Shown: one piece after another, positions 10,171 through 44,527 of the stretch
How positions within the stretch are numbered: position 1 is the stretch's first letter
Layout of the letters: each line of letters begins with the position of its first letter
DNA from: Salinibacter altiplanensis
GTDB lineage: Bacteria > Bacteroidota > Rhodothermia > Rhodothermales > Salinibacteraceae
Assembly (NCBI RefSeq): GCF_002894645.1
Contig: NZ_NCQY01000001.1
Coordinates: 1 to 44,527, forward strand
DNA length: 44,527 nt
Direction of reading: 5' to 3'
Notes under the pieces: generated by a model
The model's database searches: none
Told to the model about the DNA's origin: nothing
The model's input: only the letters and a program-made list of their open reading frames with translations
Translations under genes and position numbers: made by a program

Positions 10171-10175
10171 CGCTA

Positions 10176-12985: not shown

Positions 12986-13006
12986 TCCCCCGTTCCGGCC
13001 TGGAAA

Positions 13007-17034: not shown

Positions 17035-17421
17035 TGGCGACGGCCCTATCGGGCCGGGAGCTGAGTGCATCGTCGCTGAGAGGAAAACATGTACTCCTAG
17101 ACTTTTGGGGCAGCTGGTGCGCGCCGTGTGTGGAGGCGATTCCGAAGCTGAAGAAGGTATGCGACCGGTACCGAGACCCAAAACTTCGAGATTGTCGGGA
17201 TTGCCGCTGAGGGCGAGGCATCCGTGCGAGATGCAGCGGACCGGTTCGGCATCGAGTGGCCCCAGGTCGCCGATGAGGACGGGGGCTACAGCTCGATGTT
17301 TTTGGTCCACGGGGATCCCACGTACTATCTGGTGGGGCCCGACGGCACAGCTTTGGCGACGGGGGAACGGCTCCGTGAGGAGGGATTCGAACCCATTCTG
17401 GACGAATACCTGCGTGAGTGA
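17035..17421 (+). pseudogene. Frameshifted TlpA/ResA-like thioredoxin gene
   Basis: The first part reads ELSASSLRGKHVLLDFWGSW followed by CAPCVEAIPKLKKV, a thioredoxin fold with a CxxC site (WCAPC). Near 17177-17185 the frame breaks. The next frame continues as NFEIVGIAAEGEASVRDAAD, FGIEWPQVADEDG and FLVHGDPTYYLVGPDGTALATG to a TGA-type stop at 17421, the expected second half of TlpA-like proteins, including the cis-Pro-type region (DPTYYLV). No signal peptide or membrane anchor precedes it, so the N-terminus also seems lost. Intact relatives reduce periplasmic disulfides, for example in cytochrome c maturation. A sequencing error at the break cannot be excluded. Confidence 0.7.
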
Positions 17422-17496
17422 GGGCCCTGTTGGCGAGTCCTGGAGGGGACGGGGGGACTTCGGAGAAGGGCCATCGACGACCGGGGACAGGTTGGG

Positions 17497-18429
17497 CTAG
17501 CCGGTTCCATCTCCCGCAATGGCGGGCCGCACGAAGCCGTCCGCCGCGTCGAGTCGTCGCCGCGCCTCCGCTACCTCCACGTCCGCGAGGACCACGACGA
17601 TCGCGGTTTTGACGTGCCCGTCGCACGCGCCGAGCACGGCGTCGGCCTCCTCGTAATCGATCCCTGTGACCATCATCACCGTGCGGAGGCCGCGTTCCAC
17701 GAGCTTCTCACTGGTGCGCCGAAGGTCCACCATCATGTTCTCGTAGACCTTGCCGAGACGCACCATCGCGGCGGTCGTGATCATGTTAAGCACGAGCTTC
17801 TGCGCGGTCCCGCTCTTCATGCGCGTGGAGCCCATGATCACCTCCGGCCCCACCACCGGACAGATGGCGACGTCCGGGGCCACATCGAGGTCCGCCCGCG
17901 GGACCGTCGTCACGAAGAGCGTCGGGCAGCCAATCTCGTCCCGGGCGTGCTCCACGGCCCCCACCACGAACGGCGTGCGCCCGCTGGACGTGACACCGCA
18001 GACAACGTCATTCTCTCTCACTCCGTGCTGTTCAAGGACTTCGGCCCCGTCTTCGGGCACGTCCTCCGCGCCTTCCTGCGACCGAAAGACCGCCTCGCGC
18101 CCCCCAGCAATGAGGCCCTGCACCCGCTCCGGATCGGTCCCGAAGGTGGGGGGACACTCCGAGGCATCGACCACGCCGAGGCGCCCGCTCGTCCCGGCGC
18201 CCACGTAGAAGAGCCGCCCGTCGTTCTCGAACGCCTCCACCACGATCTTCACCGCCTCCGCCACGTGCGGCAGCTCGCGACGCACCGCAATCGGCACCTG
18301 GTGGTCCTCCGTATTGATGACGCGCAGGATCTCCTCCGTCGACGCGGTGTCGATGTGGGTGGAGTGGGGATTCCGCTGCTCGGTGGCGAGGGTCTGGAGC
18401 TCGTCGAAAAGGGAGGAAGAATCGGGCAT
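17497..18429 (-). CDS. murQ: N-acetylmuramic acid 6-phosphate etherase
   Basis: MurQ cleaves the lactyl ether of MurNAc-6-phosphate to GlcNAc-6-phosphate and lactate during cell-wall recycling. The 310-residue product has the SIS-domain signature FYVGAGTSGRLGVVDASECP with the catalytic Glu, followed by PTFGTDPERVQGLIAGG, then GVTSSGRTPFVVGA and MGSTRMKSGTAQKLVLNM. All are diagnostic of MurQ rather than other SIS proteins. The ATG at 18429 gives the normal N-terminus (a TEQRNPHSTHID motif follows); the longer open frame upstream is low-complexity. No MurNAc transporter or kinase neighbour is visible. Confidence 0.95.
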   Translation of the reverse strand: MPDSSSLFDELQTLATEQRNPHSTHIDTASTEEILRVINTEDHQVPIAVRRELPHVAEAVKIVVEAFENDGRLFYVGAGTSGRLGVVDASECPPTFGTDPERVQGLIAGGREAVFRSQEGAEDVPEDGAEVLEQHGVRENDVVCGVTSSGRTPFVVGAVEHARDEIGCPTLFVTTVPRADLDVAPDVAICPVVGPEVIMGSTRMKSGTAQKLVLNMITTAAMVRLGKVYENMMVDLRRTSEKLVERGLRTVMMVTGIDYEEADAVLGACDGHVKTAIVVVLADVEVAEARRRLDAADGFVRPAIAGDGTG

Positions 18430-18505
18430 GCCGGAGGCTAGAGGGGGCGAAAGGGCACGAGTGTGCTGGAGGCGTTCCGATCTCGATTGAGGAGGCCCTT
18501 TGCGC

Positions 18506-21310
18506 CTACGGGGACGCGATGCCCAATCGAGAGCGAAACCGAACGAGGAGCCAAGCGGAGAGGACTGCGAAGAGGGCAAGTGCGAGGGGCCACCAGGAGG
18601 AGGGGAGCGTGCCGCCGGACGAGTCTAGCTCCAGGGAGTGGGGCGCGCCGTAGAGCACCGTTGGGGCCCAAAAGAAGGGACTCAGGTTCCCGCGATGGTT
18701 TTGCAGGTACATCAGTTTGGCCTGCCGGAGGGCCCGGTCTTTGGGCTGGCCCGCCTGGAGGTTCTGGTAGAAGGTCTCCATGAGCGCAACGCTGGACCGA
18801 TCGGCCGTGGGCCACAGGTTGGACACCGTGGCCCTGGCCCCCATGACCCGGAAGGCATACTGCAGGCCCGACATGCCTTCGCCCCCCCGCAGCGTGCCAC
18901 GGGCGGTGCTGCACCCGCTGAGGACGGCCAGGGGCAAGGACCGGTCGCGCGCCTGCAGCTCGTGGAGAAACAGAAGCCCGTCTGAGCTGGAGTCGGGGTG
19001 CAGGAGGAAGGCGTTTTGGAGCGAGGAGGAGGGGTGGACAAGGGCGTGCGAGGCCAGGTGGAGCACGTCGGCCTGCCGGCTGGCGGTGGTGAAGGCCGGC
19101 TCCGTCGCGCGCTCGTCGAGAAACGTGTCGGCGTCGTCGAACAGCCGATCAAGGGTGTTGATCTCGGACCGCACCCCTGGCAAGGGGGGAGGGCGAAACG
19201 ACGAGGGAGCGGCGGTATCGGGGCGAGAGGGCTGGAGGAAGGACGACGCGGACCGCAGGGAATCGAAGGAGGACACCCCGAAGGCCGCCAGGTCGCGAGA
19301 AAACGACGCGGTGTCGCTCCGCGCCTTGGACGTGTCGGCCGCCAGGGAGGCCGACAAATCGAGTGCCGTCGGGCGCTCGTGGAGCACAAATCGGGCCCGA
19401 GCGTGGTCGTAGCGTCCCCCGGGCGTGGCCGTCGCCAGCATCGAAAAGGGCACGTGGAACATCGGCCCGTCCGGAATGACGGTCAAGGGCTGTCCGTCGG
19501 AGAGGTGCTTCGCGATGGGGGCGTAGAGGCGGTCGTGCAGTGCCCGGAGTGGACGGAGATCGAAGTGCATCGCGTTCATGTGCTGAGGTGCCTGTTGGGC
19601 CTCGAACACCGAAGAGATGCGTCGAACGTGCGCCCGGACCGAATCCTGGGACAGGTTGGGGAGGGAGACGGCCCGGAGCGTGTCCCCCGTCAGGACGAAG
19701 GCCGCAGAGCGTGGGGCCCGGTCGTACACGGGCCACGGGTCGTCGAGGAAGTACGAGACGAGGGCCCGACCCTGGCGGGCGATCGTCTCGGAGATCTCGT
19801 CCACCGACGGCCGAGCCGTCATCGCGGAGTCGAGACGCAAAGCCCGTTGGCGAGTGGCCATGAGGGTTGCTTCGCGGGCACGAAGGCTTGCCGCCTCGGC
19901 GTCGTCGAGCGCATCGGTGCCGAGCCGAGTGCGCACGTCGGTGAGGGCACGTCCGAGGCTGTCGAACCGGGCCCGTGTCGTGGGCGGAAGCTGGTTAGCG
20001 ACCCGGTCCTGCGTGCGCAGGTCTTGGAGGTACCGGGCGCGCGTTCGGTCCAGGGCCGCCAGGGCCGGTCGGGGTTCGTCCTGGGCAAGAAGGGTGCGCA
20101 CAAGGCCGCGGTGCACGTCGCGCCACTGGGCAAATGCCGTTGAGGACCACTGCGTAGCGGTCAGCGACTCCCGGTACGTCTCGATCACCGAAATGCCCTC
20201 CCGGTAGTACGTCTCCGCCGCCGCCCAGTCGCGCTGCAGTTCGTGGAGGCGGCCCAGGCCGCGCAGGGCACGGCGCTGAAAGTCGAGGTCCCGAAGGTCT
20301 TCGGCGAAGGAGAGGGCCCGACGGAGCGTGCGATCGGCCCGGGCCCACTGTTCGGTTTGCATGTGGAGGAGGCCCCGTTTGAGGAGGGCAAATGCCTGGC
20401 GCCGGATGTCATCGTGGCTCCGGGCGTACCGCAATGCCTCGTCGTTGAGGCGATAGGCCTCCTCAAACTTGCCCAGATACCCGAGGCTTTCGGACAACGT
20501 CATCGTGGACCGGGCGAATCGGTCCGTGCCGGGGTCGGCGGCCGATCGGCTGCGACGGGCAAGCGTCCGGGCCCGCTCCAGCGATGCCCGGTCGAACTGC
20601 GTGTTGAGGGTCTCCTCGAGGAGAAGGTCGGCCTGGCTGTACAGAAGATCGACGTGGCGCGACGGGGCCGACAGATCATGGTCCCGGTACAGACGCTGGG
20701 CCCGGTTCAGATACCGATGGGCGGACCGATAGTCTTGTGTGCGCTGATGCAGGACGCCGAGGCTCCGGAGGAGCTCGGTCCGTGCGGCGGCCTTGGGGGC
20801 TGGGGTGTGCCGGAGGGCTTTGAGGTACTGATCGAGGGCGTCCGAGAGGTTGCCGAGAAGGTAGTACAGGTAGCCCCGCTCTTGATAAAGGTGTGGGCGC
20901 TCGGTCGCGCGGAGGGATTCCCGTTCGTCGGGAGAACGTGTGCCGTCGTCGAGGTGGGCGAGGGCGTCGTCGAAGGCCGCCACGGCCTCGGAAAACTGGG
21001 CGAGGGCGGCGTGAAGGTAGCCTTCCCACTTCAAGGTGTAGAGAATTTCTCGGGAGGGGCGCTCGAGGGCGGACGCGGGCAGGCGACGGAAGCATCGACG
21101 GGCGTCCTGAAGCTGAGAAATATAGGCGCGGAGCGTATCGGAAGAAACGTCGTCGCGCCCCGACCAGACCCGCTGAGCATCCGGGAACGAGCGCACGGGA
21201 AGCTCCGAGCGCGCGGTGGCGGGCAGAAGCTCTGTACAGTCGTCCCGTTCCGCAACATCGGCCGCGGAAACGACGACAAGAAGACTCAGCAGCAGCGCAG
21301 TCACGAGCAA
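18506..21310 (-). CDS. TPR-CHAT protein with C-terminal membrane anchor
   Basis: The 934-residue product begins with a signal-like hydrophobic stretch (VTALLLSLLVVVSAADV). It has a long array of TPR-type helical hairpins (about 40-440, e.g. ALAQFSEAVAAFDDALAHLD and LGNLSDALDQYLKALRHTP) and a coiled linker, then a C-terminal CHAT domain of the caspase-like clan CD. The catalytic dyad appears intact: His755 in LHLASHA and Cys800 in LSGCSTA, followed by GGEGMSGLQYAF and the NLWP motif. A final membrane segment (WWPLALALFAVLSAWLLV) precedes a short basic tail, so most of the protein would lie outside the cytoplasm. The start is TTG 21310 or GTG 21304. CHAT proteins serve as proteases in several contexts; the role here is unknown. 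Confidence 0.88.
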   Translation of the reverse strand: MLVTALLLSLLVVVSAADVAERDDCTELLPATARSELPVRSFPDAQRVWSGRDDVSSDTLRAYISQLQDARRCFRRLPASALERPSREILYTLKWEGYLHAALAQFSEAVAAFDDALAHLDDGTRSPDERESLRATERPHLYQERGYLYYLLGNLSDALDQYLKALRHTPAPKAAARTELLRSLGVLHQRTQDYRSAHRYLNRAQRLYRDHDLSAPSRHVDLLYSQADLLLEETLNTQFDRASLERARTLARRSRSAADPGTDRFARSTMTLSESLGYLGKFEEAYRLNDEALRYARSHDDIRRQAFALLKRGLLHMQTEQWARADRTLRRALSFAEDLRDLDFQRRALRGLGRLHELQRDWAAAETYYREGISVIETYRESLTATQWSSTAFAQWRDVHRGLVRTLLAQDEPRPALAALDRTRARYLQDLRTQDRVANQLPPTTRARFDSLGRALTDVRTRLGTDALDDAEAASLRAREATLMATRQRALRLDSAMTARPSVDEISETIARQGRALVSYFLDDPWPVYDRAPRSAAFVLTGDTLRAVSLPNLSQDSVRAHVRRISSVFEAQQAPQHMNAMHFDLRPLRALHDRLYAPIAKHLSDGQPLTVIPDGPMFHVPFSMLATATPGGRYDHARARFVLHERPTALDLSASLAADTSKARSDTASFSRDLAAFGVSSFDSLRSASSFLQPSRPDTAAPSSFRPPPLPGVRSEINTLDRLFDDADTFLDERATEPAFTTASRQADVLHLASHALVHPSSSLQNAFLLHPDSSSDGLLFLHELQARDRSLPLAVLSGCSTARGTLRGGEGMSGLQYAFRVMGARATVSNLWPTADRSSVALMETFYQNLQAGQPKDRALRQAKLMYLQNHRGNLSPFFWAPTVLYGAPHSLELDSSGGTLPSSWWPLALALFAVLSAWLLVRFRSRLGIASP

Positions 21311-25908: not shown

Positions 25909-26184
25909 GGGCAGTGCGCTGTTGGAGAGAAGGGGCGAAGAAACATAGAGATGACGTCGGCGGCAAGTTAGGAAAGAGTAACGGGAAAACCTACCGACTG
26001 CCACGTGGGGGGCGGGCCTCGCTGGTTCATTTGGGCGTGAAAAGCGGCATGAAAAGTGGGCCGGGCGGCGTGTTACTCCGATGGAGCACCGGGCGGCCTG
26101 TTGGCGTGGGGAACGGGTGTTCGCTGCGTCCATCCGAGGAGGGGGGCGACATTTCTGTCTTTGGTCATTCAACGCGCGAACGTG

Positions 26185-28731
26185 ATGGATCGTCTGTTTC
26201 GGGCCCTGCGGCCGTTCATCCGACGTGTGACGCAGCGCGCCGGTGTGGTGCTCGGGCTCGCCGTTCTGGCCACGGCCCTGGGCGGCTACGGGGCATCCCA
26301 GCTCTCCCTCGATACCAACATTGCGAACCTCGTCCCCGAAGACTACGAAAGCGTCCAGGCCCTCAACACGCTCCAGCGCACCGTGGGTGGGGAGCGCGAC
26401 ATGGCCGTGGCCATCACCAGCCCGTCGTTTGAGGCCAACAAGCAGTTCGCCGAGGCCCTGATTCCGGAGGCCCTGTCCCTGCGGCGAACGGGAGACACGA
26501 GCGAGACGTACCTAACGCGCGTGGAGTACAAGCGCGAGGTCGAGTTTCTGAGGGACAATGCGCTCTACTTCGCGTCCGATCAGGAGCTGCGCCAGGTCGA
26601 AGGCTTTCTGGACGATCAGATTGCGGAGGCGAAGCGGGCCCGCCAGGACGCCAATCCGTTCTACTTCGAGTTGGAGGAGGGCGAGGCGGACACGACGGAG
26701 ACGACGGAGGACGGGGAGGCGCTGGAAGGGGTGTACGACCGCCTCGTCGGCACGCGCTACCCGGTCTCCGACGACAGCACCACGATGGTGCTGCGCTTCT
26801 ACCCGTCGGGATCGAATACAAACATCGGGTACATCGAGGACCTGTACGCCGACACGCGGGCCCTGGTGGACCGGATGGATCCCGCGTCGTACCACCCGGA
26901 GATGAAGGTGGTGCTCGCCGGGCGCCTGTACCGGCAGCTCGCTGAGGTGAACACCATCTGGGGCGACGTGGCCGGCTCGTTTGGGGCGGGCGTCGGGACC
27001 GTTCTGCTCGTGGTCGTCCTGTACTTTTTGTACAAGGCCTACCGGGTGCGGTCGGGTCCCGGCGTTGACGGCCGGGGGCTGTTTTGGGAGCTGGTGCGGG
27101 CGCCGGTGATGGGCCTCGTGATCGGCGGGCCGCTCTTCATGAGCCTGGCGTGGACGGGCGGCGCGGCCGCCCTGCTGTTCGGGGAGCTCAATCTCATGAC
27201 CTCCACTCTCGGCCTCGTGCTCTTCGGGCTGGGGATCGACTTCGGGATCCACTTCTACGCCCGGTACGCCGAGGAGCGGGCCGACGGGCACGCGGTCGTG
27301 GACGCGGTGGAGCGCACCTTCGTGAGCACCGGCCAGGCCATTGCCGTGGGGGCGTTCACGACGGCCGGGGCCCTGTACGTGCTCGTGGCGGCTGACTTCA
27401 AGGGCTTCAGCGAGTTTGGGGCCATTGCGGGCACCGGCGTGCTGTTTGCCCTCCTCGCCATGACGGTCGTGATGCCGGCCCTGCTGGCCCTGCTGGAGCG
27501 GACCCGCCTGCTCAACCTCCGAGGAGGGGCCGGCCTGGAGGCCCGTGAGGCCACGCACCGGCGGTACGCGGCGGCGCGGCCCGTCGTCGTGGGGGGGCTC
27601 GTGGCCGTGCTGGGGGCCCTGGTTCTTGCTCCGCGCGTCGACTTTCAGTACGACTTCGGGGCGCTGGAGCCCGAGTACACCGAGTACGAGCAGCGCGACC
27701 AGTACGTTGACCGTGTCAGCACGGGCGGGGACGGCGACCGGCGCAACCCGGCCTACGTCGTGGCGGACAGCGCGGCCGAGGTGCCCGCGATCGTCGAGGC
27801 CGTCCGCGAGAAGATGCGATCCGACACCACCTCCCCAACCATCCTGGCGGTGGAGAGCCTGCAGGAGCGGTTCCCGCTCCACGACACCAGCCAGGCGGCC
27901 AAGCTGCGCCGGATCGCCCAGATTCGCGAGACCGCCACCGAGAATCGCTACCTGCGCGACGAGTCCACCGACGCGCTGGAGCGGCTGCGCCGCGCCGCCC
28001 AGCCCCGCACCCCCATCCCGCTCGACCAGGTGCCCCGGTCGCTTCGCAAGCAGTTTACGACGAAAGAGGGCGAGCTCGGCCAGTTCGTCATGATCTACCC
28101 GTCCGTGGGCCTCTCCGACGGGCGAAAGTCCATCGCCTTCGCCCGGGACGTGGGCACCATCACGACGGACGACGGCACCACCTACCACGCGGGCTCCACG
28201 TCTCTCGTCGCGGCGGACATGCTAATGCTGCTGCAGCGGGAGGCGCCCTGGATGATTCTGGGCACGTTCGTCATTGTCGCGCTGCTGATGCTGCTCAACT
28301 TCCGGTCGCTCCGGTGGGCCGGGCTGGCCCTCGTGCCGCTCGGGGTGGGCCTGCTGTGGATGCTGCTGGCGATGGAGGTGTTCGGCCTCAGGGTCAATTT
28401 CTACAACATGGTCGTCTTCCCGGCCATCCTGGGGATTGGCAACGACGCGGGGGTGCACATGGTGCACCGGTACCGGGAGGAGGGCTCCGGCTCGCTCTGG
28501 ACCGTGCTGCGGTCGACGGGGGAGCACGTCACGATGGGCACGCTCACGACGATGGTCGGGTTCGGGGGGCTGCTCCTGAGCTTCCACCCCGGCCTCAACT
28601 CGATGGGCACCCTCGCGGTGCTGGGGCTGGGCACCACGCTGCTCGCGGCGGTCGCCTTCCTGCCGGCGCTGTGGCAGTGGCTGGAGGACCGCGGCGACGT
28701 GCCGCACGACGTGGGGACGGAAGAGGAGTGA
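26185..28731 (+). CDS. MMPL/RND-family exporter (hopanoid/lipid type)
   Basis: The 848-residue product has the two-fold RND layout: an N-terminal membrane helix, a large periplasmic loop, five helices, then the same again. The first half contains the [17 protein letters not shown] helix. The second contains [22 protein letters not shown] and [20 protein letters not shown]; the GxxxD / GNDAG motifs are the proton-relay helices of MMPL/HpnN-like transporters. Substrates in this group are lipids, hopanoids or other hydrophobic compounds. ATG 26185 starts a normal N-terminus ([15 protein letters not shown]). The last 47 bp of homologous sequence before the tail is repeated at 34406-34452. Confidence 0.88.
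28645..28691 (+). repeat. Duplicated 3' segment of the exporter gene, copy 1
   Basis: These 47 bp, within the last codons of the exporter gene (encoding [16 protein letters not shown]), are identical to 34406-34452 in the same orientation. Each copy is followed by an intI homologue on the minus strand, so this marks one end of a larger duplication. Confidence 0.9.
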
Positions 28732-28781
28732 GGGCGAAGGAGTGCCGTAGTCTAAAACTACTTCTTCGCTTCGCTCAGGGC

Positions 28782-29213
28782 GAAGCGTGTGGCAGGTCGC
28801 GTGCTTCTCAATGTCCGCCGTGTCGGCGGCGGTCTTGACGGCCCGCTGCACGGCCGAGTCGGAGCGGTGGTGGCGGCGCACGGCCCCACTGCGCGGGTCT
28901 CCCGACAGCTGCGGGGAGGGGAAGACGTACTGTCACCGCCACTCGGTCGCCGCGTTCGGGGACTTCTCCGCAATCGCGCCGGGCAGATGCACGCCCCTGA
29001 CGCCTTCCGCACAGTCCGTCTCGTGTTGGGCCTTCACCGTCTTCAGGTGACGCTGGAGGGGGACGTGCAGGCGTTCGGGCAGCACGGTCGTGCGGTCCTT
29101 TCCCCCCTTCCCCATCCCGTGCGTGGAGGCGGCCCCTGTCGAAGTCGAGCTCCTTGGCCCGAAGGCGGAGAGCTACCGAGAGGCGCAGGCCGCTGCCGTA
29201 AAGAAAATATGCG
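28782..29213 (-). pseudogene. Integron integrase relic
   Basis: The minus strand matches the intI gene at about 34691-35119 over its whole length, with scattered substitutions and small indels. One frame reads [35 protein letters not shown] and PNAATEWR, then meets TGA where the other copy has TGG (WRWQYVF). Both ends are missing: the C-terminal R-H-Y catalytic part beyond CHTLR is replaced by unrelated sequence, and the N-terminal SAM-like domain is gone. It cannot make an active recombinase. It sits just downstream of the exporter gene, as the better intI copy sits beside the duplicated exporter end. Confidence 0.88.
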
Positions 29214-31865: not shown

Positions 31866-31874
31866 GCAGTCCTG

Positions 31875-32130
31875 AGAAGCTGTTTGGTGGACGCTCTGTG
31901 GCCCCTCGGAAGTACTTGGTCGCTGCGCTCCCAGCGCAAGATGGCTTCTGCATTCGCCCGGTAGCTCCCCACGGGCATGACCTCGCTCCTGCTCGGCCCC
32001 CGCTACAGAGACTCATTACAGAGACTCATTTGGGCACCATTTTGCAGCTTCGCCCACTGTGTGTACTCGGCTGGGCCTCGTCAGTCGCTACGCTCGTGTC
32101 GGCTGAACATCAATCCACCAAACAGCTTCT
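31875..32130. mobile_element. MITE-like element with 17-bp terminal inverted repeats
   Basis: AGAAGCTGTTTGGTGGA (31875-31891) recurs as its exact reverse complement at 32114-32130, bounding 256 bp with no credible gene. Inside is a tandem 13-bp repeat (TACAGAGACTCAT at 32004-32016 and 32017-32029). Perfect terminal repeats around a short non-coding core fit a non-autonomous transposon. No clear target duplication is visible. Confidence 0.6.
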
Positions 32131-32278
32131 GAGGCATTCCGGTTTTTTCGCCGGTGGCGAATGAGCTCAGGCTTCACGTCGGTGGCTATGAGGGGGATCA
32201 TAAAACGGAGTGGCTCTTCCGGCCTGGAAAAACGTCCTGCACGAGGCACGCCTTTCCCAACAGAAAAGATACGCACTC

Positions 32279-34390: not shown

Positions 34391-34405
34391 CCGGGGCGGC
34401 TCGCC

Positions 34406-34452
34406 GCGGCGGTCGCCTTCCTGCCGGCGCTGTGGCAGTGGCTGGAGGACCG
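34406..34452 (+). repeat. Duplicated 3' segment of the exporter gene, copy 2
   Basis: These 47 bp are identical to 28645-28691. Here they are fused to a transposase relic upstream and followed by 68 bp and the intI stop codon. Confidence 0.9.
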
Positions 34453-34520
34453 AGGGTTTTGGGGGGAGCGTTGAGGGTTATGGGGTGAGGGTTGGTGCGT
34501 GGAGGGCGCGCGTCGGGGGG

Positions 34521-35516
34521 CTACGCCGGGTCGGTCGGGAGGGTGTCGAGGGGACTGGTGACGGCCTCGCCGCTTTGCTCCAGCACGTGGACGTACTGCA
34601 TGGTGGTGCGGAGCTGCTCGTGGCCCAGCAGCTTCTGAATCGTCCGCACATCGGTGCCGTCCTGCAGCAGGTGCGTGGCGAAAGAGTGGCGAAGCGTATG
34701 ACACGTCGCTCGTTTCTCGATCTCCGCCGCGTCGGCGGCGTTCTTGACGGCCCGCTGCACCGCCGAGTCGGAGCGGTGGTGGCGGCGCACGGCCCCACTG
34801 CGCGGGTCTTCCGACAGCTGTGTGGAGGGGAAGACGTACTGCCACCGCCACTCGGTCGCCGCATTCGGGTACTTCTCCGCAATCGCGTCGGGCAGATGCA
34901 CGCTCCCGACGCCTTCCGCACAGTCCGTCTCGTGCTGGGCCTTCACCGTCTTCAGGTGACGCTGGAGGGGGACGTGCAGGCGTTCGGGAAGCACGGTCGT
35001 GCGGTCCTTTCCTCCTTTCCCATCCCGTACGTGGACGCGGCCCCTGTCGAAGTCGAGCTCCTTGACCCGGAGGCGGAGAGCTTCCGAGAGGCGCAAGCCA
35101 CTGCCGTACAGAAGATGAGCGATGCGCCGGTTTGGGCCGGGAGAGAGGGACGCGAAGAGGCGCCGCACCTCCTTCCGAGAGAGCACCGTGGGGAGGCGTT
35201 TGGGCCGGTCGGCCCGGTCGAGGGGGCCAATGTCATCGAGTTCCACGCCCAGTACCTGTTCGTAGAGGAACACCAGGGCATTGAGGGCCTGGTTCTGGGT
35301 GGAGGCCGCGACGTTGCGCTCCGACGCGAGGTGGGACAGGAAGGCCCGGATGTCGTCTTCCGCGAGGTGGCGGGGGTGGGTGGTGTCGTGGAACCGAACG
35401 AAGCGGGTGACCCAGCGCACGTACGCCTTCTACGTGTGGTAGCTGTACTGGCGGCGCTGGCAGACCTGCCGCACCTGATCGAGGAGCTTGGGGGATTGTT
35501 CTGTGGGGCCGGGCAT
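34521..35516 (-). pseudogene. intI: Integron integrase IntI, amber-interrupted at codon 29
   Basis: The frame from ATG 35516 would encode 330 residues, but codon 29 is TAG (35432-35430, after QRRQYSYHT). Everything after it is intact and can be read from GTG 35420. The tyrosine-recombinase residues are present: Arg in [24 protein letters not shown] (HxxR), [10 protein letters not shown] and Tyr in [11 protein letters not shown]. The IntI-specific insert is clear ([29 protein letters not shown]), separating it from XerC/D. IntI recombines attC with attI to insert cassettes. The stop removes the first helix of the core-binding domain unless suppressed or restarted at GTG 35420. The restart protein may be weak or inactive. 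Sequencing error is possible. Confidence 0.9.
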
Positions 35517-35721
35517 GGCCGAAGAGAGGGACTCCGTTCAGGGTGTGTGGCTTGACAATAAGATCGCCAATATTGAATATGTCAAATGAGTTAACGTATT
35601 CAGCGAGTCAACCCGGTTTGACATATGCACAGGGCATTTCGCATAACCAGAAGTGGTTCAGTGGGTTGTAGGGCTGGGGATGTGGATATGTTGAGCACAT
35701 TGATATAATTATAGGTTATAC
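35517..35721. promoter_or_regulatory. Candidate attI and divergent promoter region
   Basis: The region between intI and the first cassette is AT-rich. TTGACATAT occurs on both strands as an inverted repeat (35577-35585 and 35618-35626). Rightward, TTGACA (35618) is followed after 18 bp by CATAAC, a possible cassette promoter Pc; leftward it may serve intI. GTTATAC at 35715-35721, with context GTTATACGGC, matches the R' ends of the attC sites and is the likely attI crossover (35715/35716). GCATAACC at 35641-35648 may be an accessory site. Roles are inferred. Confidence 0.5.
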
Positions 35722-35772
35722 GGCTAAACCGAACTGTAACTACCTTACTCTCTCAGAACTTGTGTTAAAACA

Positions 35773-36066: not shown

Positions 36067-36093
36067 GGCCGATCACGGTGGAAAGTAGGGCCG

Positions 36094-36281
36094 CATAACC
36101 CATCACTATAGCTGACGAGCGGCTTTTGCCAGTTTTGAGCGATGAGGTTAAGGCAGTTCATCTCCGTTTACCGCGAGTGATGACAAGAGCGAATGATCGC
36201 TTTGCCGTCCGACTCGATTTGCCGATGTACTGGTTTCTGACCTCTTCCTGGCCGCTCGCGAGCTAAGTTCGCCCGTTATAC
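36094..36281. repeat. attC site 1 (188 bp)
   Basis: The 5' end is CATAACC...TAGCTGACGAGCGGC and the 3' end GGCCGCTCGCGAGCTAAG...GTTATAC. The ends are largely complementary (TAGCT..CGAGCGGC), as attC folding needs. Longer than the 126-bp sites. Confidence 0.8.
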
Positions 36282-36319
36282 GCACCCTTTCGCCTCCTCT
36301 AGCAACTGCAATTGCTGTC

Positions 36320-36526: not shown

Positions 36527-36542
36527 CGAGAAGGCTTGAGCG

Positions 36543-36673
36543 TATAACACGGCGCTGCACCGGACGATGGGCGTGTGCCGTTTTAAATCTGCGTCGCCAT
36601 TTGGCTGCACTCTACGCTATATTTTGGCCTCGCTGCTCATCCTGCCACCGCCGGTGAGTTTTGACCGTTATGC
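36543..36673. repeat. attC site 2 (131 bp, divergent)
   Basis: It starts TATAACACGGCGCTGCACCGG and ends CCGGTGAGTTTTGACCGTTATGC. CACCGG/CCGGTG replaces the TAGCT box of the other sites, so the palindrome is kept with a different sequence. Confidence 0.75.
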
Positions 36674-36772
36674 CGATCTATCCGTTCTATTCAGTGGCCG
36701 TCGGTTTGCTATTCCGTGAGATACTACTTTTGTAGTATTAAACAAGCAGTATCAATCGGACCCTTCCCATCC

Positions 36773-37855
36773 ATGCGACTCCTGCTCTCTTTGCTTCTCG
36801 TTTTCTTCCTCGCTCCTGGCGTCAATGCACAGGGTCTGGGCCAGGGTACGGCGGAGGCGCCTGTCACTGACTGGCCCTCTGCCGATGCCGACACTATGGG
36901 CCTCAGCACCAAGGCGCTTCAAGCCCACCTCGACCGTTGTAAGCAATCAGGCTCCTTCGGATGCCTGGTGGCGTACAGGGGGCACGTCGTGCAGAAATGG
37001 TACCGGGTCGAGCATCGCAACCCGTTTGTCGGGACCCGCTCGGCGGTGAAGTCCTGGACGGGTCTGCTTGCGGGCATGCTCATCGCGGACGGCGCCATCG
37101 ACAGTGTCGGCGTGCCGGTGGCCAAATGGATTCCGGAGTGGACCGCCGGAGCGGAGGCCGACGTCACGATTCGGCATCTCCTGACGATGACATCGGGCCT
37201 GAGCGATCGCACAGGCAATGGCGTGACCGTTCCGCCTCCCGACTCGGCAACGGCCGCGGCGATTCCGGAGGGGCCCGGCGTCGTGGCCGAGAAGAACACG
37301 ACAGGATATGTTTTTGACCTCCAGCTCGACTTTCCGCCCGGGAAGCGGTTTTCCTACAGCAACGAAGGGGTGCAGCTGCTCTCCCCCATTCTGGAGCGAG
37401 CCGCGGGAATGCCCCTCGCCCGCTACGCCCGCGAGCGATTGTTCGGCCCCCTGGGCATGGAGAATACTCGTCTCATGGTGGACGAGTACTACAACACCAT
37501 CACCTTCGGCGGCGCTGAAACGACCCTCACGGAGTTTGCACGCATTGGGCAGCTCATGCTCAACGAGGGGCGCTGGAACGGCCTGCAGATCGCGCCCGCC
37601 TCGTGGGTCGAGCGGTCGACCACTTCCATCGAGCAGATGCCCAACTACGGGTTTCTGTGGTGGATTGACCCGAAACGAACTAATTATGCGGCGACGGGCA
37701 GCCTCGACAATGTCTGCATCGTCTTTCCTGATCTGGACCTCGTGGTGGCCCGGATGCAGCGCGACCCTCATCCAGGCGCTGAGGTCAAGTACCAGAGCAC
37801 CCAGACCCTGGACCTGCTCCGGCGGATCGTGGAGGGATCGGCCACGAAGGAATAG
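36773..37855 (+). CDS. Cassette 3a: secreted serine beta-lactamase-like hydrolase
   Basis: The 360-residue product has a Sec signal peptide (LLLSLLLVFFLAPGVNAQ, cut near residue 20). Its fold is that of class C beta-lactamase/AmpH-type hydrolases: SxxK as SAVK (Ser90, Lys93), a YSN motif in FSYSNEGVQLL near residue 195, and RHLLTMTSGLSD between them. The ATG at 36773 is preferred over 36716 because it directly precedes the signal peptide. Such enzymes include DD-peptidases, esterases and amidases, so resistance to beta-lactams should not be assumed. It shares one 2.55-kb cassette with a catalytically degenerate relative that starts 63 bp downstream. Confidence 0.85.
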   Translation: MRLLLSLLLVFFLAPGVNAQGLGQGTAEAPVTDWPSADADTMGLSTKALQAHLDRCKQSGSFGCLVAYRGHVVQKWYRVEHRNPFVGTRSAVKSWTGLLAGMLIADGAIDSVGVPVAKWIPEWTAGAEADVTIRHLLTMTSGLSDRTGNGVTVPPPDSATAAAIPEGPGVVAEKNTTGYVFDLQLDFPPGKRFSYSNEGVQLLSPILERAAGMPLARYARERLFGPLGMENTRLMVDEYYNTITFGGAETTLTEFARIGQLMLNEGRWNGLQIAPASWVERSTTSIEQMPNYGFLWWIDPKRTNYAATGSLDNVCIVFPDLDLVVARMQRDPHPGAEVKYQSTQTLDLLRRIVEGSATKE

Positions 37856-37918
37856 CGCCCGGCCCCGGAGTGTCCGTTCTTCGAATCAGTCCCTAAAAGC
37901 AATCAGAGAAATCTGACG

Positions 37919-39022
37919 ATGCTACCACCGCTATCTGTTCGGTGTATCGCGATAGTCCTTCTCGGTGCGACGGGCTGGGCGGCAAGCGCCGGATGTGCGA
38001 GCTCGGACCAGAGCACGCAACCGCAGCCGAGTCGGCTGGAGCAAGCGAAGGCCTACTCCGCTAAGAAGGCAGGAGATGCTCTTTTGGTGTGGAAGGGGGG
38101 CGACCTCGTCCTCGAAGCCTACCAGAACGGCTATGACCCGGAACAGCCCCACATCCTCACGGAGGTGAGCGCGCTTTTCCCGGCCCTGACAGCCCTGACG
38201 CTCGTGGACAACTCTCTCTTGGCTCTTGACGAACCGGTCGCCCGTGTGGTCGAAGGGTGGCGCTCATCTCCCCAAAAATCCAAAGTCACCCTCTCCCACC
38301 TTCTTCACCGAACGAGCGGGCTGAAGCAGTATGGAGTAGGGCAAGGAACCGTCCCGGCCTACGAAAAGGCCCTTACAGCCCCGATCGTTGAGGGTCCGGG
38401 AGAGAAATTTCGGTTCGGGTATGCGGACGCGCAAGCCCTCGGCGCAGTTCTCGAACGGACGGATGGAAAGAGGCCAATGATGAAAGAACGCCTTTTCCTG
38501 CCGCTGGGCATCCCTGGAGGCCGCTGGTTGTGGGTAAGCCAGAATTCCGAGAGTGAAACGTCGGCGGGTTCTCCTCAAGCGCGTTCCCTCAGCGTCAGAC
38601 TCTACGACGGTGCGCACCTTACGGCTCGGCACCTGGGGCGGGTCGGGCGGATGCTTCTGCAGGACGGGCAGTGGAAGGGCAAGACCATAATCGAAAACCT
38701 GGCCCCACTAACCGAGCCGACACCAGCAAGCCCCGGATACGGGGCGGGCGTCTGGCTCAACGTGCCCCTCGACTCAATCCCGTCGGCCCAGTTCGAGAGG
38801 TTCTGGTCGCAGGTTCCGGAAAGCATCCTACTGACTCACGACGAGAAGCGGCTCATTTACGACGGTGCCCCTCCGCAAATGTACATGGCCGCAGGTCGCT
38901 ACAACCAACGACTCTACGTCCTCTCGTCTAAGGAAATGGTGATCGTTCGGCTTGGGCGAGCGGACCGGACTTGGAGCGACGCAGAGTTTCTAACTCGACT
39001 TTTAGGTGGAAAGAGTCTATGA
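37919..39022 (+). CDS. Cassette 3b: beta-lactamase-fold lipoprotein, catalytic residues lost
   Basis: The 367-residue product follows the layout of the upstream hydrolase (VTLSHLLHRTSGLKQYG corresponds to its RHLLTMTSGLSD, and ERLFLPLGI to RERLFGPLGM). The SxxK motif has become SALF (Ser84, Phe87) and the YxN motif FGYADAQ. Without the Lys and Asn it should not be an active acyl-serine hydrolase. A lipoprotein signal ending ASAGC (Cys26) suggests membrane anchoring. It may be a substrate-binding or regulatory partner of the active hydrolase, or a drifting duplicate. The frame is intact over its full length, which argues for selection. Confidence 0.75.
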   Translation: MLPPLSVRCIAIVLLGATGWAASAGCASSDQSTQPQPSRLEQAKAYSAKKAGDALLVWKGGDLVLEAYQNGYDPEQPHILTEVSALFPALTALTLVDNSLLALDEPVARVVEGWRSSPQKSKVTLSHLLHRTSGLKQYGVGQGTVPAYEKALTAPIVEGPGEKFRFGYADAQALGAVLERTDGKRPMMKERLFLPLGIPGGRWLWVSQNSESETSAGSPQARSLSVRLYDGAHLTARHLGRVGRMLLQDGQWKGKTIIENLAPLTEPTPASPGYGAGVWLNVPLDSIPSAQFERFWSQVPESILLTHDEKRLIYDGAPPQMYMAAGRYNQRLYVLSSKEMVIVRLGRADRTWSDAEFLTRLLGGKSL

Positions 39023-39098
39023 GAGTCAACTGCCTCAGGCAGAGGGCGAAAATGTAGAGGCCAGATCACCTATCTACCCGACCCCTACATCTTGGCAC

Positions 39099-39224
39099 CA
39101 TAACAAGTCGCTGTAGCTGACGAAAAATTCGGGACATTTTGCCCTTTTGCAGTCGAGACAATTTCTTATTCTCGAAACTACGGATGTGCCGCAACTTTTC
39201 GCGAGCTAAGCTCAGTCGTTATAC
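39099..39224. repeat. attC site 3 (126 bp)
   Basis: It starts CATAACAAGTCGCTGTAGCT and continues GACGAAAAAT; it ends ACTTTTCGCGAGCTAAGC...CGTTATAC. It is the same length as sites 4 and 5 and closely similar to them. Confidence 0.88.
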
Positions 39225-39243
39225 CGCACTATGCCCCAATCGT

Positions 39244-40044
39244 ATGACGGAAAATAAAGATAACGACTCGTCTCCTCCGGAAATCGTTGATGCTGGAGCC
39301 GACATTGCAGGTGCAGCTACCGGTGCTACGTTAGGCACATTTTTAGGTGGACCAGCCGGTGCAGCCATCGGAGCTGCAATGGGACACACTCTTCGGAAGA
39401 TCGGAGCTGAGATCAATAATCGGTACATCAGTCCGAGGGAGGATGAGCGGGTTGCATCGGCACTGACATATGCTATCGAGCGCGCCGAACGAAAGATAGA
39501 GGATGGTGAAGAAATTCGTAGCGACGGCTTTTTCGATGAGGGAACGGATGACCGAAGTACAGCTGACGAGATAGTGGAGGGAGCTCTAATCGCAGCTCAA
39601 CGAGAGCACGAGGAGCGTAAAGTTGAGTACATTGGATATCTGATTGCAAATATCTGCTTCGACGAGTCAGTGGGAGGCCCTCAGTCCAACGCCTTGATCA
39701 GCACAGCTGAACGCATAAGTTGGAGGCAGATCCGGATTTTAGCCTACCTCCTGCGTCCGCAAAAATTTGCCGGATCGGATAGAACAACTCCCACTTTCAG
39801 TCCCGACAGTATTCGAGATTTAGAGCCACCTCCAGACGATTTTTTACATGAGTTCTCGGAGTTACAGCAGATGAGACTCTTAATGGATCTGGAAGCCTTC
39901 ATGGGCTTCCCTTTCGATCCTGACAGATATGTCGTATCGAGATTTGGTAAGCAATTGTATTCCCTGATGGAACTTGAGAGGATCGATCCTTCCGTACTCC
40001 GAGAGTTCAGTGAGTTGTGTAAGTTTGGTCGGTATGATGTGTAG
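39244..40044 (+). CDS. Cassette 4: glycine-zipper protein of unknown function
   Basis: The 266-residue product has an acidic start, then a Gly/Ala-rich segment GATLGTFLGGPAGAAIGAAM (about 25-44) that looks like a membrane-inserting glycine zipper. A long helical, charged domain follows: RVASALTYAIERAERKIEDG, EIVEGALIAAQREHEERKVE, YIGYLIANICFDESVGGPQ. The C-terminal part ends LCKFGRYDV. ATG 39244 is chosen because it is the first in frame inside the cassette (25 bp from the border); the upstream frame lies in attC. I do not recognise a named family. A glycine zipper joined to a helical sensor-like domain would suit a membrane-acting effector, but this is speculation. Confidence 0.75.
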   Translation: MTENKDNDSSPPEIVDAGADIAGAATGATLGTFLGGPAGAAIGAAMGHTLRKIGAEINNRYISPREDERVASALTYAIERAERKIEDGEEIRSDGFFDEGTDDRSTADEIVEGALIAAQREHEERKVEYIGYLIANICFDESVGGPQSNALISTAERISWRQIRILAYLLRPQKFAGSDRTTPTFSPDSIRDLEPPPDDFLHEFSELQQMRLLMDLEAFMGFPFDPDRYVVSRFGKQLYSLMELERIDPSVLREFSELCKFGRYDV

Positions 40045-40052
40045 AAATGTGG

Positions 40053-40178
40053 TATAACACGTCGCTGTAGCTGACGAAAAGCTCAGGCCGGATTGCTCTT
40101 CTGAGAACGAGATGGCTTCTTGTGCCTGAAGCGAAGGTAGTGCCGCAATTTTTCGCGAGCTAAGCTCGAACGTTATAG
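40053..40178. repeat. attC site 4 (126 bp)
   Basis: It starts TATAACACGTCGCTGTAGCT and continues GACGAAAAGCT; it ends TTTTTCGCGAGCTAAGCTCG then AACGTTATAG. It begins 8 bp after the stop of the cassette 4 gene. Confidence 0.88.
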
Positions 40179-40209
40179 CGCGCTTAGTTGAACGGTCTGA
40201 TCCTCTGTA

Positions 40210-40650
40210 ATGGAGCTTTACGCGGAAGCATATCAGCAACTCGCTTCAATCAGCGCCGTGCTCGGGGGACTGGCTTTCGCTGCGGCTGCTGCCCTTCTGA
40301 ACGCCGGGGCGCGGACCAGCGACGCGAGTGCGTTGGACTGGCCCGCCAAGCTTACGACCGGAACGGCGGTGGCAAGTGCGGTCCTGTACGTAATTGCCGC
40401 GATGACTTGGTCGTTCATGACGGCTGACCTCTTTCGGGCTGCTGCTGATGGTCAATCGTTTCCTCCTGGGGTTGCTCTCATGAACTTTGTTGCTTCCCTT
40501 GAAATGATCGCCGGATCCGTGCTCCTTTTCGTGAGCATCGGCGCAAGTGGATGGATCGCATCTCGAAGGATTGGAATCGCCACAAGTGGGGTTGCTCTCG
40601 GAGGCGGTATTGGACTGATGATTCTGATTTTTTGGTTCGGTGACCTATAA
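40210..40650 (+). CDS. Cassette 5a: four-helix membrane protein
   Basis: The 146-residue protein has about four predicted membrane helices: ASISAVLGGLAFAAAAALL, TGTAVASAVLYVIAAMTWSF, FVASLEMIAGSVLLFVSIGA and GVALGGGIGLMILIFWFG. Loops are short and there is no signal peptide. No family is recognised. It starts 37 bp inside its cassette and is followed 50 bp later by a secreted hydrolase gene in the same cassette, so the two probably share a transcript. Confidence 0.7.
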   Translation: MELYAEAYQQLASISAVLGGLAFAAAAALLNAGARTSDASALDWPAKLTTGTAVASAVLYVIAAMTWSFMTADLFRAAADGQSFPPGVALMNFVASLEMIAGSVLLFVSIGASGWIASRRIGIATSGVALGGGIGLMILIFWFGDL

Positions 40651-40700
40651 CCCGATGGGGTCAGCTGTCATTCACGTAAGGACAGGTTCCAAATCAGATT

Positions 40701-42176
40701 ATGAGCGGGAAGACTTGCGTTCTGGGTTCATTCGCGGCTATCCTTCTCGGCGTCCTTGCCTGTGCGAGTCCTCTCAGGGCCCAAACGCTCGACTCGATTG
40801 CCGAGCGGCAGCGAGCGGTCGAGTCGGGACTGCTTCCCGAGGTGATCGTTGCGAGCGACCCGGATCCAGGCTACGGAATTTACGAGGGCATGAGGCGGGA
40901 TAGCGTGCCCGGTCTCAGCGTCGCCGTGATCAATGGTGGGGCGGTGGAGTGGGCGATGGGATACGGCGCAAAGCGGTCGGGCAGTTCAGACTCGGTCGTG
41001 GTCTCTACGCTGTTTCAGGGCGCGTCGCTCAGCAAACCCATTGCGGCCACCGCTGCGCTTCAGCTCGTCGACGACGGGCGCCTCACCTTAGACGACAACG
41101 TCAACCGCTGGCTCCGGTCATGGCGGGTGCCCGAAAACGAATACACGGCCCGGCGGCCCGTCACGCTCCGCGGTCTTCTGAGTCACACCGCCGGTCTGAC
41201 CGTGCACGGGTTCTCCGGATACTCGACGGGAACGGATCTCCCGTCCCCAGTTGACATCCTTGAGGGGAGGGGCAAGACGGATCCGGTTCGCCTCGATACG
41301 ATTCCAGGGACAGCGTTCCGCTACTCCGGCGGCGGGTACATGGTGGCTCAGGTTCTGATGCAGGACGTGACGGGGGACCGGTTTGCCCCAATGATGGAGC
41401 GGGAAGTGTTCGATCCACTCGGCATGTACCGAAGCACCTACGAGCAGCCGCTTTCGGAGCATCTAGAACAAGTGGCTGCCCACGCTCATCGGGACGACGG
41501 AACGCCCCTCAAGAATCGATGGGAAATCGAACCGGCGCTGGCCGCAGCCGGTCTTTGGACCACGCCTACAGACATCGCCCGATTCGCACTGGGGATTCGT
41601 GACGCTTACAAGGGAACTCCCGGGGCACTCCTTCAACAATCGACAGCTCGGGAAATGTTGTCGGAGCAGAAGGAGAACTGGGGACTAGGCCCGGAGGTTT
41701 ATGGTAAAGGCGACAGCCTTCGGTTCAGCCACCGGGGCTCAATCACGGGATATCGAGCGTTCTTCGTCCTGTATCCGGAAACGGGCGACGGGGTTGCGGT
41801 CATGACCAACTCCGAGGCCGCAGGCGGTTTGATGTTTGACGTAGCACGGGCGGTTGCCACCGTCTACGACTGGCCCACCTTCCAGTCGGAAACGCGGACC
41901 GTGGTGGAGGTTCCTGCGGAGACGCTGGCGGACTATGTGGGCGATTATCAGCTTCCCTCCGGCGCGGAAATCACTGTCACCCGCGACGAAGATCAACTCT
42001 TCGTGGACGTGCCCGGTGAAGACACGGTCCCGCTTTTGGCAGAGTCGAAGGCCGTATTCTTTCCGAAGGGAGAGAAGGCCCGTCTCGCTTTCAAGCGGGA
42101 CTCGACCGGTCGAGTCACCCACTTCATTTTGCGCCAGGAAAACAGTAAAACGAAGGCTGTGCGCCAAGTGCCTTGA
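40701..42176 (+). CDS. Cassette 5b: secreted serine beta-lactamase-like hydrolase
   Basis: The 491-residue product has a signal peptide ending near LACASPLRAQ, read either as a lipoprotein (Cys21) or as cleaved after RAQ. The catalytic core contains SxxK as SLSK (Ser109, Lys112), Tyr208 in RYSGGGYMVAQ, LSHTAGLTVHG, and a late HRGSITGYRAFF corresponding to the third motif (HxG). A C-terminal DUF3471/lipocalin-like domain (ETLADYVGDYQLPSGAEITV onward, about residues 412-490) is typical of Bacteroidota serine hydrolases of this group. Substrate unknown; peptides or esters are possible. It differs clearly in sequence and architecture from the cassette 3 enzymes, so it is not a recent duplicate. 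Confidence 0.88.
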   Translation: MSGKTCVLGSFAAILLGVLACASPLRAQTLDSIAERQRAVESGLLPEVIVASDPDPGYGIYEGMRRDSVPGLSVAVINGGAVEWAMGYGAKRSGSSDSVVVSTLFQGASLSKPIAATAALQLVDDGRLTLDDNVNRWLRSWRVPENEYTARRPVTLRGLLSHTAGLTVHGFSGYSTGTDLPSPVDILEGRGKTDPVRLDTIPGTAFRYSGGGYMVAQVLMQDVTGDRFAPMMEREVFDPLGMYRSTYEQPLSEHLEQVAAHAHRDDGTPLKNRWEIEPALAAAGLWTTPTDIARFALGIRDAYKGTPGALLQQSTAREMLSEQKENWGLGPEVYGKGDSLRFSHRGSITGYRAFFVLYPETGDGVAVMTNSEAAGGLMFDVARAVATVYDWPTFQSETRTVVEVPAETLADYVGDYQLPSGAEITVTRDEDQLFVDVPGEDTVPLLAESKAVFFPKGEKARLAFKRDSTGRVTHFILRQENSKTKAVRQVP

Positions 42177-42223
42177 ATGCACAACTCTTACCCCTGACGT
42201 GAGCAGGAGTAGGCCACACGCGC

Positions 42224-42349
42224 TATAACCCTGCGCTGTAGCTGACGAAAAGTTTGGGCCATTTTGCTCGTCCTCAACCAAAACTGTTTCTTGTGCTCGA
42301 AGCTACAGGTGTGCCGCGACTTTTCGCGAGCTAAGCTCCGTCGTTATGC
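42224..42349. repeat. attC site 5 (126 bp)
   Basis: It starts TATAACCCTGCGCTGTAGCT and continues GACGAAAAG; it ends GACTTTTCGCGAGCTAAGCT then CCGTCGTTATGC. It is near-identical at both ends to sites 3 and 4. Confidence 0.88.
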
Positions 42350-42455
42350 CTCCCTGACCCGATTACTGAAGGTACTGATGCAGTTGCCGTGTTGGAGCGG
42401 CAGAGAATGTAGGTAAACTACCCCAATTATACTGATCGACAGAAATGATATCGTA

Positions 42456-42881: not shown

Positions 42882-43067
42882 CATAACCCTCGATGTAGCT
42901 GACAAAGGGCGCGGGCCATTTTCAAGCGTAGCGTGTCGGGTGTTCGCCGTTGTCAATCGGAGGTGCTGACGCTGGCAAATGAGCACTTCGCGATCAGGGT
43001 CAGTTTATCGAGGTGCTGGGATTTTGAACTTTTTCCGTCCTTTGCGAGCTAATCTCTGTCGTTATGC
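42882..43067. repeat. attC site 6 (186 bp)
   Basis: It starts CATAACCCTCGATGTAGCTG and continues ACAAAGGG; it ends CCTTTGCGAGCTAATCTCTG then TCGTTATGC. The TAGCT..CAAAGG / CCTTTG..AGCTA arms pair, and the inner loop is longer than in the 126-bp sites. Confidence 0.8.
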
Positions 43068-43262
43068 CGCACCACCCTGCGTCGGAAAATCGAGTCGCAG
43101 CTTGAGTCCTCATGTCTCCCGTTGGATGCGTCTCTGCTTGCGCAACCACTTCAGGCTGAGTCTACCATTTTCTCTCGTTCGTTGCAAATCGAGCTATGCC
43201 GCCATACTTTTGCCTAGTGTCCACATGTGATCAACGACTTCTTCATGTTACCCGTCTCTTAG
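43068..43262. other. Leader region of cassette 7
   Basis: About 200 bp separate the cassette border from the first start codon, an unusually long lead for a cassette. No reading frame here is convincing; it may hold a cassette-borne promoter. Confidence 0.4.
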
Positions 43263-44294
43263 ATGTCCGGTTCTATAAGTAGCCAGGATGCAGGGAGCCA
43301 GAATGGATCTACCGATCAGAACCACTCATCTGAGGTAGAATCCCTCGATGGTCAGGCCGCCGAGACAGTCACCGACTCTGTGGAGTGCCCGAGCTGTGGG
43401 CGAACCTTTTCGGGGACCTACTGCCCGGACTGCGGGGAGGAGGTCGGGGCTTCCCTCACAATGGGAGATGTGATCGGGGATGCGTTCCGGGAGGTGTCCG
43501 AGATTGGAGACGGGCTCCAAGCAACACTGGTCGGGTTTACCGTTCGTCCCGGGGAGGTGCTACAGGAGTACCTCTCCGGAGTCCGGAGGCGATACATGAG
43601 CCCAGGACGCTACCTGACGGTGGCAGTGCTCCTGTTTCTTGGAACCATGCAGGGACTGATCTGGCTTGATTTCATGAAGCCCCTTTCGGACTCGGCGATG
43701 ATGATGGGACCCGGCGGTTCCAAGAAGGAAGTCACGCAACTCACATCGTCTCAATGGTATACGCTTGCCACGGTGTTTCTCAATGCGGGGATACTGGGGC
43801 TTCTGTTCTGGCGCATCTTCGGGGAGAAACTGCGTCGAGGAGCGGAGGCACTGGCGATCGGGGTTTTTCTCGTTGCCCATGCCTCGGTGCTGTCGGTTGG
43901 CGTCCGGGTGCTGCTCGTCCCCGCCGTCTCGCTTTGGAGGGGAGCTCCTGTCGACCCAGCGGTTCCCACCAGTATTGGCTCCGTGATTATGGTGCTGTAT
44001 CCTGGAGTGGCGGCCTATCTTAGGTTCGGAACGGATTGGGGGAGTGCCGTCAAAGGGATACTGGGGTCAGTGTGGGCGTACATTGAGACAATTGCAACGG
44101 GAGCCATTGCAGCGTTTTGGTATCTTTTTCTGAGTTCCCCCAGTTTCCATGAAGCCTATCGGACTCACCTGAATGAGCTCCTCCCGGACGGGGGAGAGGA
44201 CCTTGTAATGGTGACATTGGGACTTACAACGGTGATCTACTTGGTGCCCCTATTCCTCCACGTCGCGATGGAGGCGTACTACCGTCTGCGGTAA
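43263..44294 (+). CDS. Cassette 7: zinc-ribbon membrane protein, DUF3667-like
   Basis: The 343-residue product starts with a disordered acidic stretch, then a four-Cys zinc ribbon CPSCGRTFSGTYCPDCGEEV (about residues 42-61). An amphipathic region (LTMGDVIGDAFREVSEIGDG) is followed by TLVGFTVRPGEVLQEYLSGV and RRRYMSPGRYL, the pattern of DUF3667-type proteins. About five membrane helices follow, including YLTVAVLLFLGTMQGLIWL, LATVFLNAGILGLLFW and ALAIGVFLVAHASVLSVGV. The family has no established function to my knowledge; zinc sensing or a role in envelope stress is guesswork. It is the longest membrane protein in the array. Confidence 0.75.
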   Translation: MSGSISSQDAGSQNGSTDQNHSSEVESLDGQAAETVTDSVECPSCGRTFSGTYCPDCGEEVGASLTMGDVIGDAFREVSEIGDGLQATLVGFTVRPGEVLQEYLSGVRRRYMSPGRYLTVAVLLFLGTMQGLIWLDFMKPLSDSAMMMGPGGSKKEVTQLTSSQWYTLATVFLNAGILGLLFWRIFGEKLRRGAEALAIGVFLVAHASVLSVGVRVLLVPAVSLWRGAPVDPAVPTSIGSVIMVLYPGVAAYLRFGTDWGSAVKGILGSVWAYIETIATGAIAAFWYLFLSSPSFHEAYRTHLNELLPDGGEDLVMVTLGLTTVIYLVPLFLHVAMEAYYRLR

Positions 44295-44468
44295 TTTGCA
44301 CCACTCAAATGCGTCACTATCGGTGGCGGCCCACTCGCAGGAGGACACACGGATCAACTCACGTGACTTATGGAAAGCGACCACGACGACTTTCTGAGAC
44401 CGAGAGCAGGTGAAAGATCCACTTCTAGATCAGGATTTGGAGGGCTGGTTGGACGCCTGGGCATGCGG

Positions 44469-44527
44469 CATAACCCCGCGCTACAGCTGAAAATGGGCTG
44501 TAGCCGTTTTCGGACACGTCAGCCCGA
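44469..44527. repeat. attC site 7, 5' part only
   Basis: CATAACCCCGCGCTACAGCTG matches the 5' ends of the other sites. It contains a perfect short hairpin GCTACAGC/GCTGTAGC. The 3' half lies beyond the window. The 174 bp between the cassette 7 stop and this site hold no visible gene. Confidence 0.7.

Follow-up and report, generated by a model that had tools for sequence, protein, structure and literature searches.

Does an integron integrase gene interrupted by a single early stop codon still act on the cassettes beside it, and how long ago was it broken? The question is raised by the intI gene of an entire contig (C11) of 44,527 bases, hereafter the window, from a draft genome of 3.59 Mb (G000; 30 contigs, 99.75% complete). 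Our analysis indicates that a Salinibacter-type halophile has here most probably lost the integrase of a chromosomal (sedentary) integron, through a single nonsense substitution at codon 29 that arose recently.

The plus strand reads CTA at positions 35430–35432, which places an amber codon (TAG) on the minus strand, in frame at codon 29 of intI. Base reading and translation from the ATG at 35516 agree with an earlier note on this DNA, which described the frame as open except for that codon: the only further stop is the TAG at codon 332 (34521–34523). The amber copy shares 92% amino acid identity with an open copy in the related genome G004. Four codons past the amber, a GTG at codon 33 (35420–35418) offers a candidate restart. 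The features of the locus are collected in Table 1.

Against TIGR02249, the NCBI model for integron integrases with a cut-off of 265, the 299-codon remainder reaches 415.7 bits over profile positions 24–315 of 315. Its residues 2–293 of 299 align with 2a3v, an integron integrase of solved structure (E = 4.4e-84). Together these matches identify a real gene rather than a chance frame. PF00589 and an N-terminal SAM-like domain are also matched in the remainder (profile positions 23–84 of 85 for the N-terminal model). The catalytic tyrosine-recombinase residues are present together with the IntI-specific extra region (2a3v alignment, PF00589), and the catalytic part is intact after the stop, as had been proposed. 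What the gene lacks as a member of the IntI family is an unbroken frame from the N-terminal domain onward, which the TAG at codon 29 interrupts.

Table 1 Coordinates of the integron features in the window
Feature	Position	Strand	Details
3' part of gene 26056–28731	28644–28694	+	part of the gene neighboring the intI fragment
Hairpin element of ~35 bases, inserted in intI fragment	28747–28780	-	18-base motif match
Decayed second intI fragment	28779–29205	-	427 bases, about codons 133–276, both ends lost
Second copy of gene tail	34405–34455	+	51 bases, 98% identical, beside amber intI
intI (integron integrase gene, tyrosine recombinase)	34521–35516	-	331 codons + stop, broken at codon 29; translation, TIGR02249, 2a3v alignment
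Longest post-stop frame	34521–35420	-	299 aa from GTG codon 33; without first part of N-terminal domain
Amber TAG	35432–35430	-	codon 29 of intI
intI-to-first-cassette region, presumed integrase promoter + attI	35517–35770	.	DNA similarity in relatives
attC site 1	36092–36284	+	
attC site 2	36541–36672	+	weaker; right end judged by eye
Cassette 3	36716–39022	+	two serine hydrolase-type genes (PF00144)
attC site 3	39097–39228	+	
Cassette 4	39139–40044	+	gene of unknown function
attC site 4	40051–40182	+	
Cassette 5	40210–42176	+	small unknown gene + serine hydrolase-type gene (PF00144 + DUF3471)
attC site 5	42222–42353	+	
attC site 6	42882–43071	+	
Cassette 7	43263–44294	+	DUF3667 gene
attC site 7	44467–44527	+	truncated by contig end

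An attC array adjoins intI, as in a complete integron. Half-sites were scanned separately in the window and chance-like matches with 3–4 mismatches were set aside, which left seven left ends of attC with two mismatches or fewer, all on the plus strand (36096, 36545, 39101, 40055, 42226, 42884, and 44471). Beside intI on this strand there are also five right ends, none with more than one mismatch. Paired halves numbered three against a mean of 0 in 20 shuffles, fewer than the repeat families show; the attC repeats of the window fall in families D2–D5. Hairpin folding is weak evidence for attC identity here: the three sites folded as single strands gave z-scores of −0.71, −0.39, and −2.58, and one of the three clearly beats its shuffles. 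Between intI and the first cassette, the DNA from 35517 up to about 35719–35727 resembles that beside intI in G004, G011, G001, G005, and G008, and a 155-base relative lies on another contig of the same genome (C21, locus L052).

Three cassette genes encode serine hydrolase-type proteins. Against the NCBIfam class C beta-lactamase model (cut-off 415), the first gene of cassette 3 scores 27 bits, its second gene gives no match, and the hydrolase gene of cassette 5 scores 51.5; because these scores lie far under the cut-off, we do not call them resistance genes, and no resistance gene was identified among the window genes scanned. On contig C21 (L052, about 4347–8996), the attI-like region is followed by genes, of which one is kinase-like and one toxin-like by eye, and by left ends of attC that continue to the end of the contig. 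This locus has no intI match and forms an integrase-less array. Contigs C3 and C4 start within attC-like sequence and have a 50-base prefix in common; together with the cassettes of C21, these starts indicate that the array is split over contigs. A copy of cassette 3 with two serine hydrolases, 88% identical, lies on contig C10 (L130, about 7065–19757). Half sites of degenerate attC-like sequence occur on the same strand, some kilobases off. The earlier note mentioned neither that the whole-contig window ends in attC nor that it holds a decayed second intI fragment.

This second fragment is 92% identical to the amber copy and carries a frameshift, an in-frame TGA at 28933–28935, and a 35-base insert. 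A search of the own genome for intI returned seven rows (one for the amber copy, two for the fragment, and four elsewhere at 28–39% identity) and no third intI-like match in the 30-contig draft assembly, so that we set aside rescue by another intI of the same genome. Judged from the 30 contigs, which hold no open intI match, the integron probably lacks the working integrase of a complete one. The two intI places also differ in their surroundings. In G004, G005, G011, and G012, intI directly adjoins the ortholog of gene 26056–28731; in the window, the fragment occupies that place. The two copies of the gene tail (Table 1) flank a 5.7-kb stretch, and the 5.2 kb between the two intI places match other places in relatives, with a methyl-accepting chemotaxis protein (MCP) gene 80% identical in G001 and 79% in G004, and with the part at 32.3–33.6 kb 84% identical to G002 and G012. 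Since a gene-tail copy stands at both intI places and the intervening DNA matches elsewhere, the integron edge has been rearranged and partly duplicated, presumably before the stop arose. Within the intervening DNA, a repeat of ~264 bases (31871–32134) ends in 21-base inverted repeats that are 95% complementary; numerous complete or partial relatives of it occur in the own genome, the closest 97% identical, and it is likely a MITE.

The age of the stop was approached by comparing related copies. In an alignment with 12 other rows, every one of the ten copies that can be read at codon 29 encodes an amino acid there; the two unreadable rows are G002, whose start is gone, and the fragment of the window, which does not include this region. 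Over codons 30–326, the window and G004 copies differ by a dN of 0.041 and a dS of 0.49. We then counted synonymous (S) and nonsynonymous (N) changes after the stop, excluding ambiguous codons. With G011 as outgroup (27 codons ambiguous), the window branch carries S 35 and N 2 and the sister branch S 30 and N 7; with G001a as outgroup (34 codons ambiguous), the counts are S 31.5 and N 3.5 against S 27 and N 5. In N:S, the window branch and its open sister show no significant difference (P = 0.15 and 0.72). Taking a neutral N:S of 2.3–2.8, no more than 6–12% of the window branch can have evolved neutrally.

The decayed fragment served as a positive control. Its branch gives S 6 and N 11, or S 5 and N 7, corresponding to an omega of 0.72 or 0.55, and the window copy measured on the fragment's basis gives an omega of 0.13 or 0, a borderline difference (Fisher P = 0.046 and 0.044). 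The high omega of the fragment relative to the window copy therefore indicates that the branch method can detect long decay. Against this control, the 35 synonymous and two nonsynonymous changes after the stop support the view, put forward in the earlier note, that the loss looks recent. Omega in itself is a poor test of function, because broken relatives keep low ratios: the broken copies G002, G004b, G008, and G005a show an omega of about 0.11–0.17, similar to the 0.09–0.18 of open copies. The window intI has the lowest value among the compared copies, and it is the low nonsynonymous count on its branch (ratio 0.02) alone that bounds the age, not a low ratio as such.

These data fit a recent loss or else a shortened product that still functions. 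The strong constraint after the stop is equally expected from a working shortened integrase that starts at GTG codon 33, or from full-length traces made by basal readthrough; in either case the array would be slowly active. We consider this unlikely. The GTG restart suggested in the earlier note holds as to its position, and an AAGG ends five bases upstream of it. The codon itself is not conserved: of the ten other copies that can be aligned, five have GTG at position 33 and five have a different codon (G002 and the fragment set aside). A product from this start would also miss the first 22 positions of the model for the N-terminal domain and the first 23 of TIGR02249, a stretch that open relatives possess. 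Codons 1–28 carry S 1 and N 0–1 on the window branch (5 codons ambiguous), with no extra decay and no sign of long disuse, which makes it less likely that GTG 33 has long served as the start. As to readthrough, Rfam matched 46 tRNAs in the own draft genome, and ARAGORN assigned an anticodon to 45 of them; none of the 45 reads UAG (anticodon CTA), and the uncalled match (L129, 42 bits) contains no CTA in its matched stretch. Amber suppression is thus unsupported among the Rfam-detected tRNAs of this draft assembly.

The amber codon could instead be a sequencing or assembly error in an intact gene, since it is a single-base difference in a single draft assembly of 30 contigs. We hold this to be somewhat less likely still than a working shortened product. 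The difference is a substitution and not a homopolymer indel, and the genome reaches 99.75% completeness. Three neighboring genes (413, 520, and 891 aa) are unbroken and nearly full length relative to their G004 orthologs, one of them with a different start. The nearby second intI copy is broken by several independent changes.

A different kind of interruption recurs in intI genes of the genus. The motif GAAGTRGTTTTAGACYRC of a 35–44 base hairpin element has 68 matches in 13 genomes at up to two mismatches, against seven for a reversed control; in places the elements stand in tandem at 36-base spacing. In the window genome, the motif occurs once at up to one mismatch, within the intI fragment. 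Relatives with the element in intI are found at loci L031, L032, L033, L043, L041, and L112. Specifically, the element interrupts intI at about codon 81 in G005 (two copies and a remnant recognized by eye), G004b, and G012b, and at about codon 275 in the window's fragment and G001b. The carriers at codon 81 do not cluster together in the tree of either intI piece, and several supports are low. The element-free copy G001a is placed with the two G005 copies (support 0.98 for the 3' piece and 0.69 for the 5' piece), and G004b and G012b fall elsewhere. The 44-base inserts of G012b and G005b differ at three places, and the flanking 5' piece is 71% identical between them. This distribution could reflect repeated insertion at the same site, transfer by recombination, or precise loss. 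REP elements are reported inside genes, once at about the same recB site in two species (PMC3733652). No Rfam match to the hairpin element was obtained at E up to 1 for the one tandem place searched. A hairpin element at the same intI codon in scattered copies is more curious than the stop itself. It is conceivable, if quite improbable, that the element enters intI at fixed sites and exits precisely, toggling the integrase off and occasionally on, with the amber codon as another route to the off state.

The least credible reading, which we regard as very improbable, takes the amber codon for a switch whose on and off states interconvert by reversion within the population: one substitution is reversible in principle and open related copies exist in the genus, with no direct support beyond that, and among the repeat matches listed, only a 76% match of 25 bases (35433–35457) lies beside the codon. 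Base substitution is far too slow for a phase switch. The idea of the earlier note that the array is switchable by reversion accordingly found no backing in our set of one genome per species, in which neither reversion nor two states are in evidence.

Loss of intI is repeated across the genus. We searched 13 genomes including the window genome, one per species, some of them incomplete drafts (G008, 83%), and obtained intI matches at E ≤ 1e-30 in 12 of the 13, with 21 rows merging to 19 loci. Eight of the 19 are open across the catalytic part (two in G004 and one each in G011, G001, G007, G006, G010, and G012, whose copy has an altered tail), and the other 11 are broken; remnants below the cut-off are uncounted, at least one being apparent by eye (G005, L112). 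Five of the 12 intI-bearing genomes (G000, G002, G003, G005, and G008) are without an open copy. A wider scan of genome contigs returned six intI loci, three of them on contigs of G011, G002, and G008. The viral contigs scanned gave no intI match, and on plasmids all matches among the best 5000 records lay below 60% identity.

Published surveys describe frequent inactivation of intI, and our finding is therefore ordinary in kind: nearly one third of intI genes were classed as pseudogenes in one (PMC2426708), and 43% and 46% were inactivated in another (PMC3108266). The intI pseudogenes or 'pseudo-integrons' of Nemergut et al. (2008, PMC2426708) likewise include chromosomal intI genes with an internal stop, many apparently arising through within-genome duplication, and their decay is thought to be recent. 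The text of that survey does not mention Salinibacter; here, age is bounded by branch counts with a decayed control in the same window. The intI2 gene of class 2 integrons also combines one internal stop with retained cassettes (PMC2426708). The intI2 integron is typically mobile, whereas that of the window is chromosomal and has no resistance gene identified among the genes scanned. The stop of intI2 lies elsewhere in the gene than the one described here. Probably within the same genus, the integron of Salinibacter ruber M1 comprises an attC array with intI and is called complete in the work on IntegronFinder 2.0 (PMC9024848); the integrase of the window is interrupted. In the intI1 losses, linked to fitness cost, of Starikova et al. 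(2012, PMC3510236), the disabling changes likewise fell within the gene's first quarter. Those were frameshifts in mobile class 1 integrons under laboratory evolution, and the present case is one natural substitution. In the literature searched, which covered few subscription journals, neither the codon-29 stop nor the hairpin element was found described for Salinibacter.

Under the reading that we prefer, a recent nonsense inactivation, translation would stop after 28 residues, ahead of every catalytic residue, and the product would presumably be inactive. The cassettes would remain but would no longer be excised or captured by the integron's own enzyme, with no other intI found in the assembly. 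The array may plausibly be frozen, unless basal readthrough or an integrase supplied in trans keeps it active. We infer the reason for the rise of the null allele from published work on integrase cost, which reports such a cost and loss through early disabling changes in experimental evolution (PMC3510236): an active integrase would often be useless or costly, null alleles would rise, and the gene would then decay, as the second copy did. The window thus adds one more case, bounded in age, of integrons often retaining their cassettes after loss of the integrase, a rule that is visible here within one genus. Because a fresh null allele and a decayed fragment stand side by side, the timing of this decay becomes measurable.
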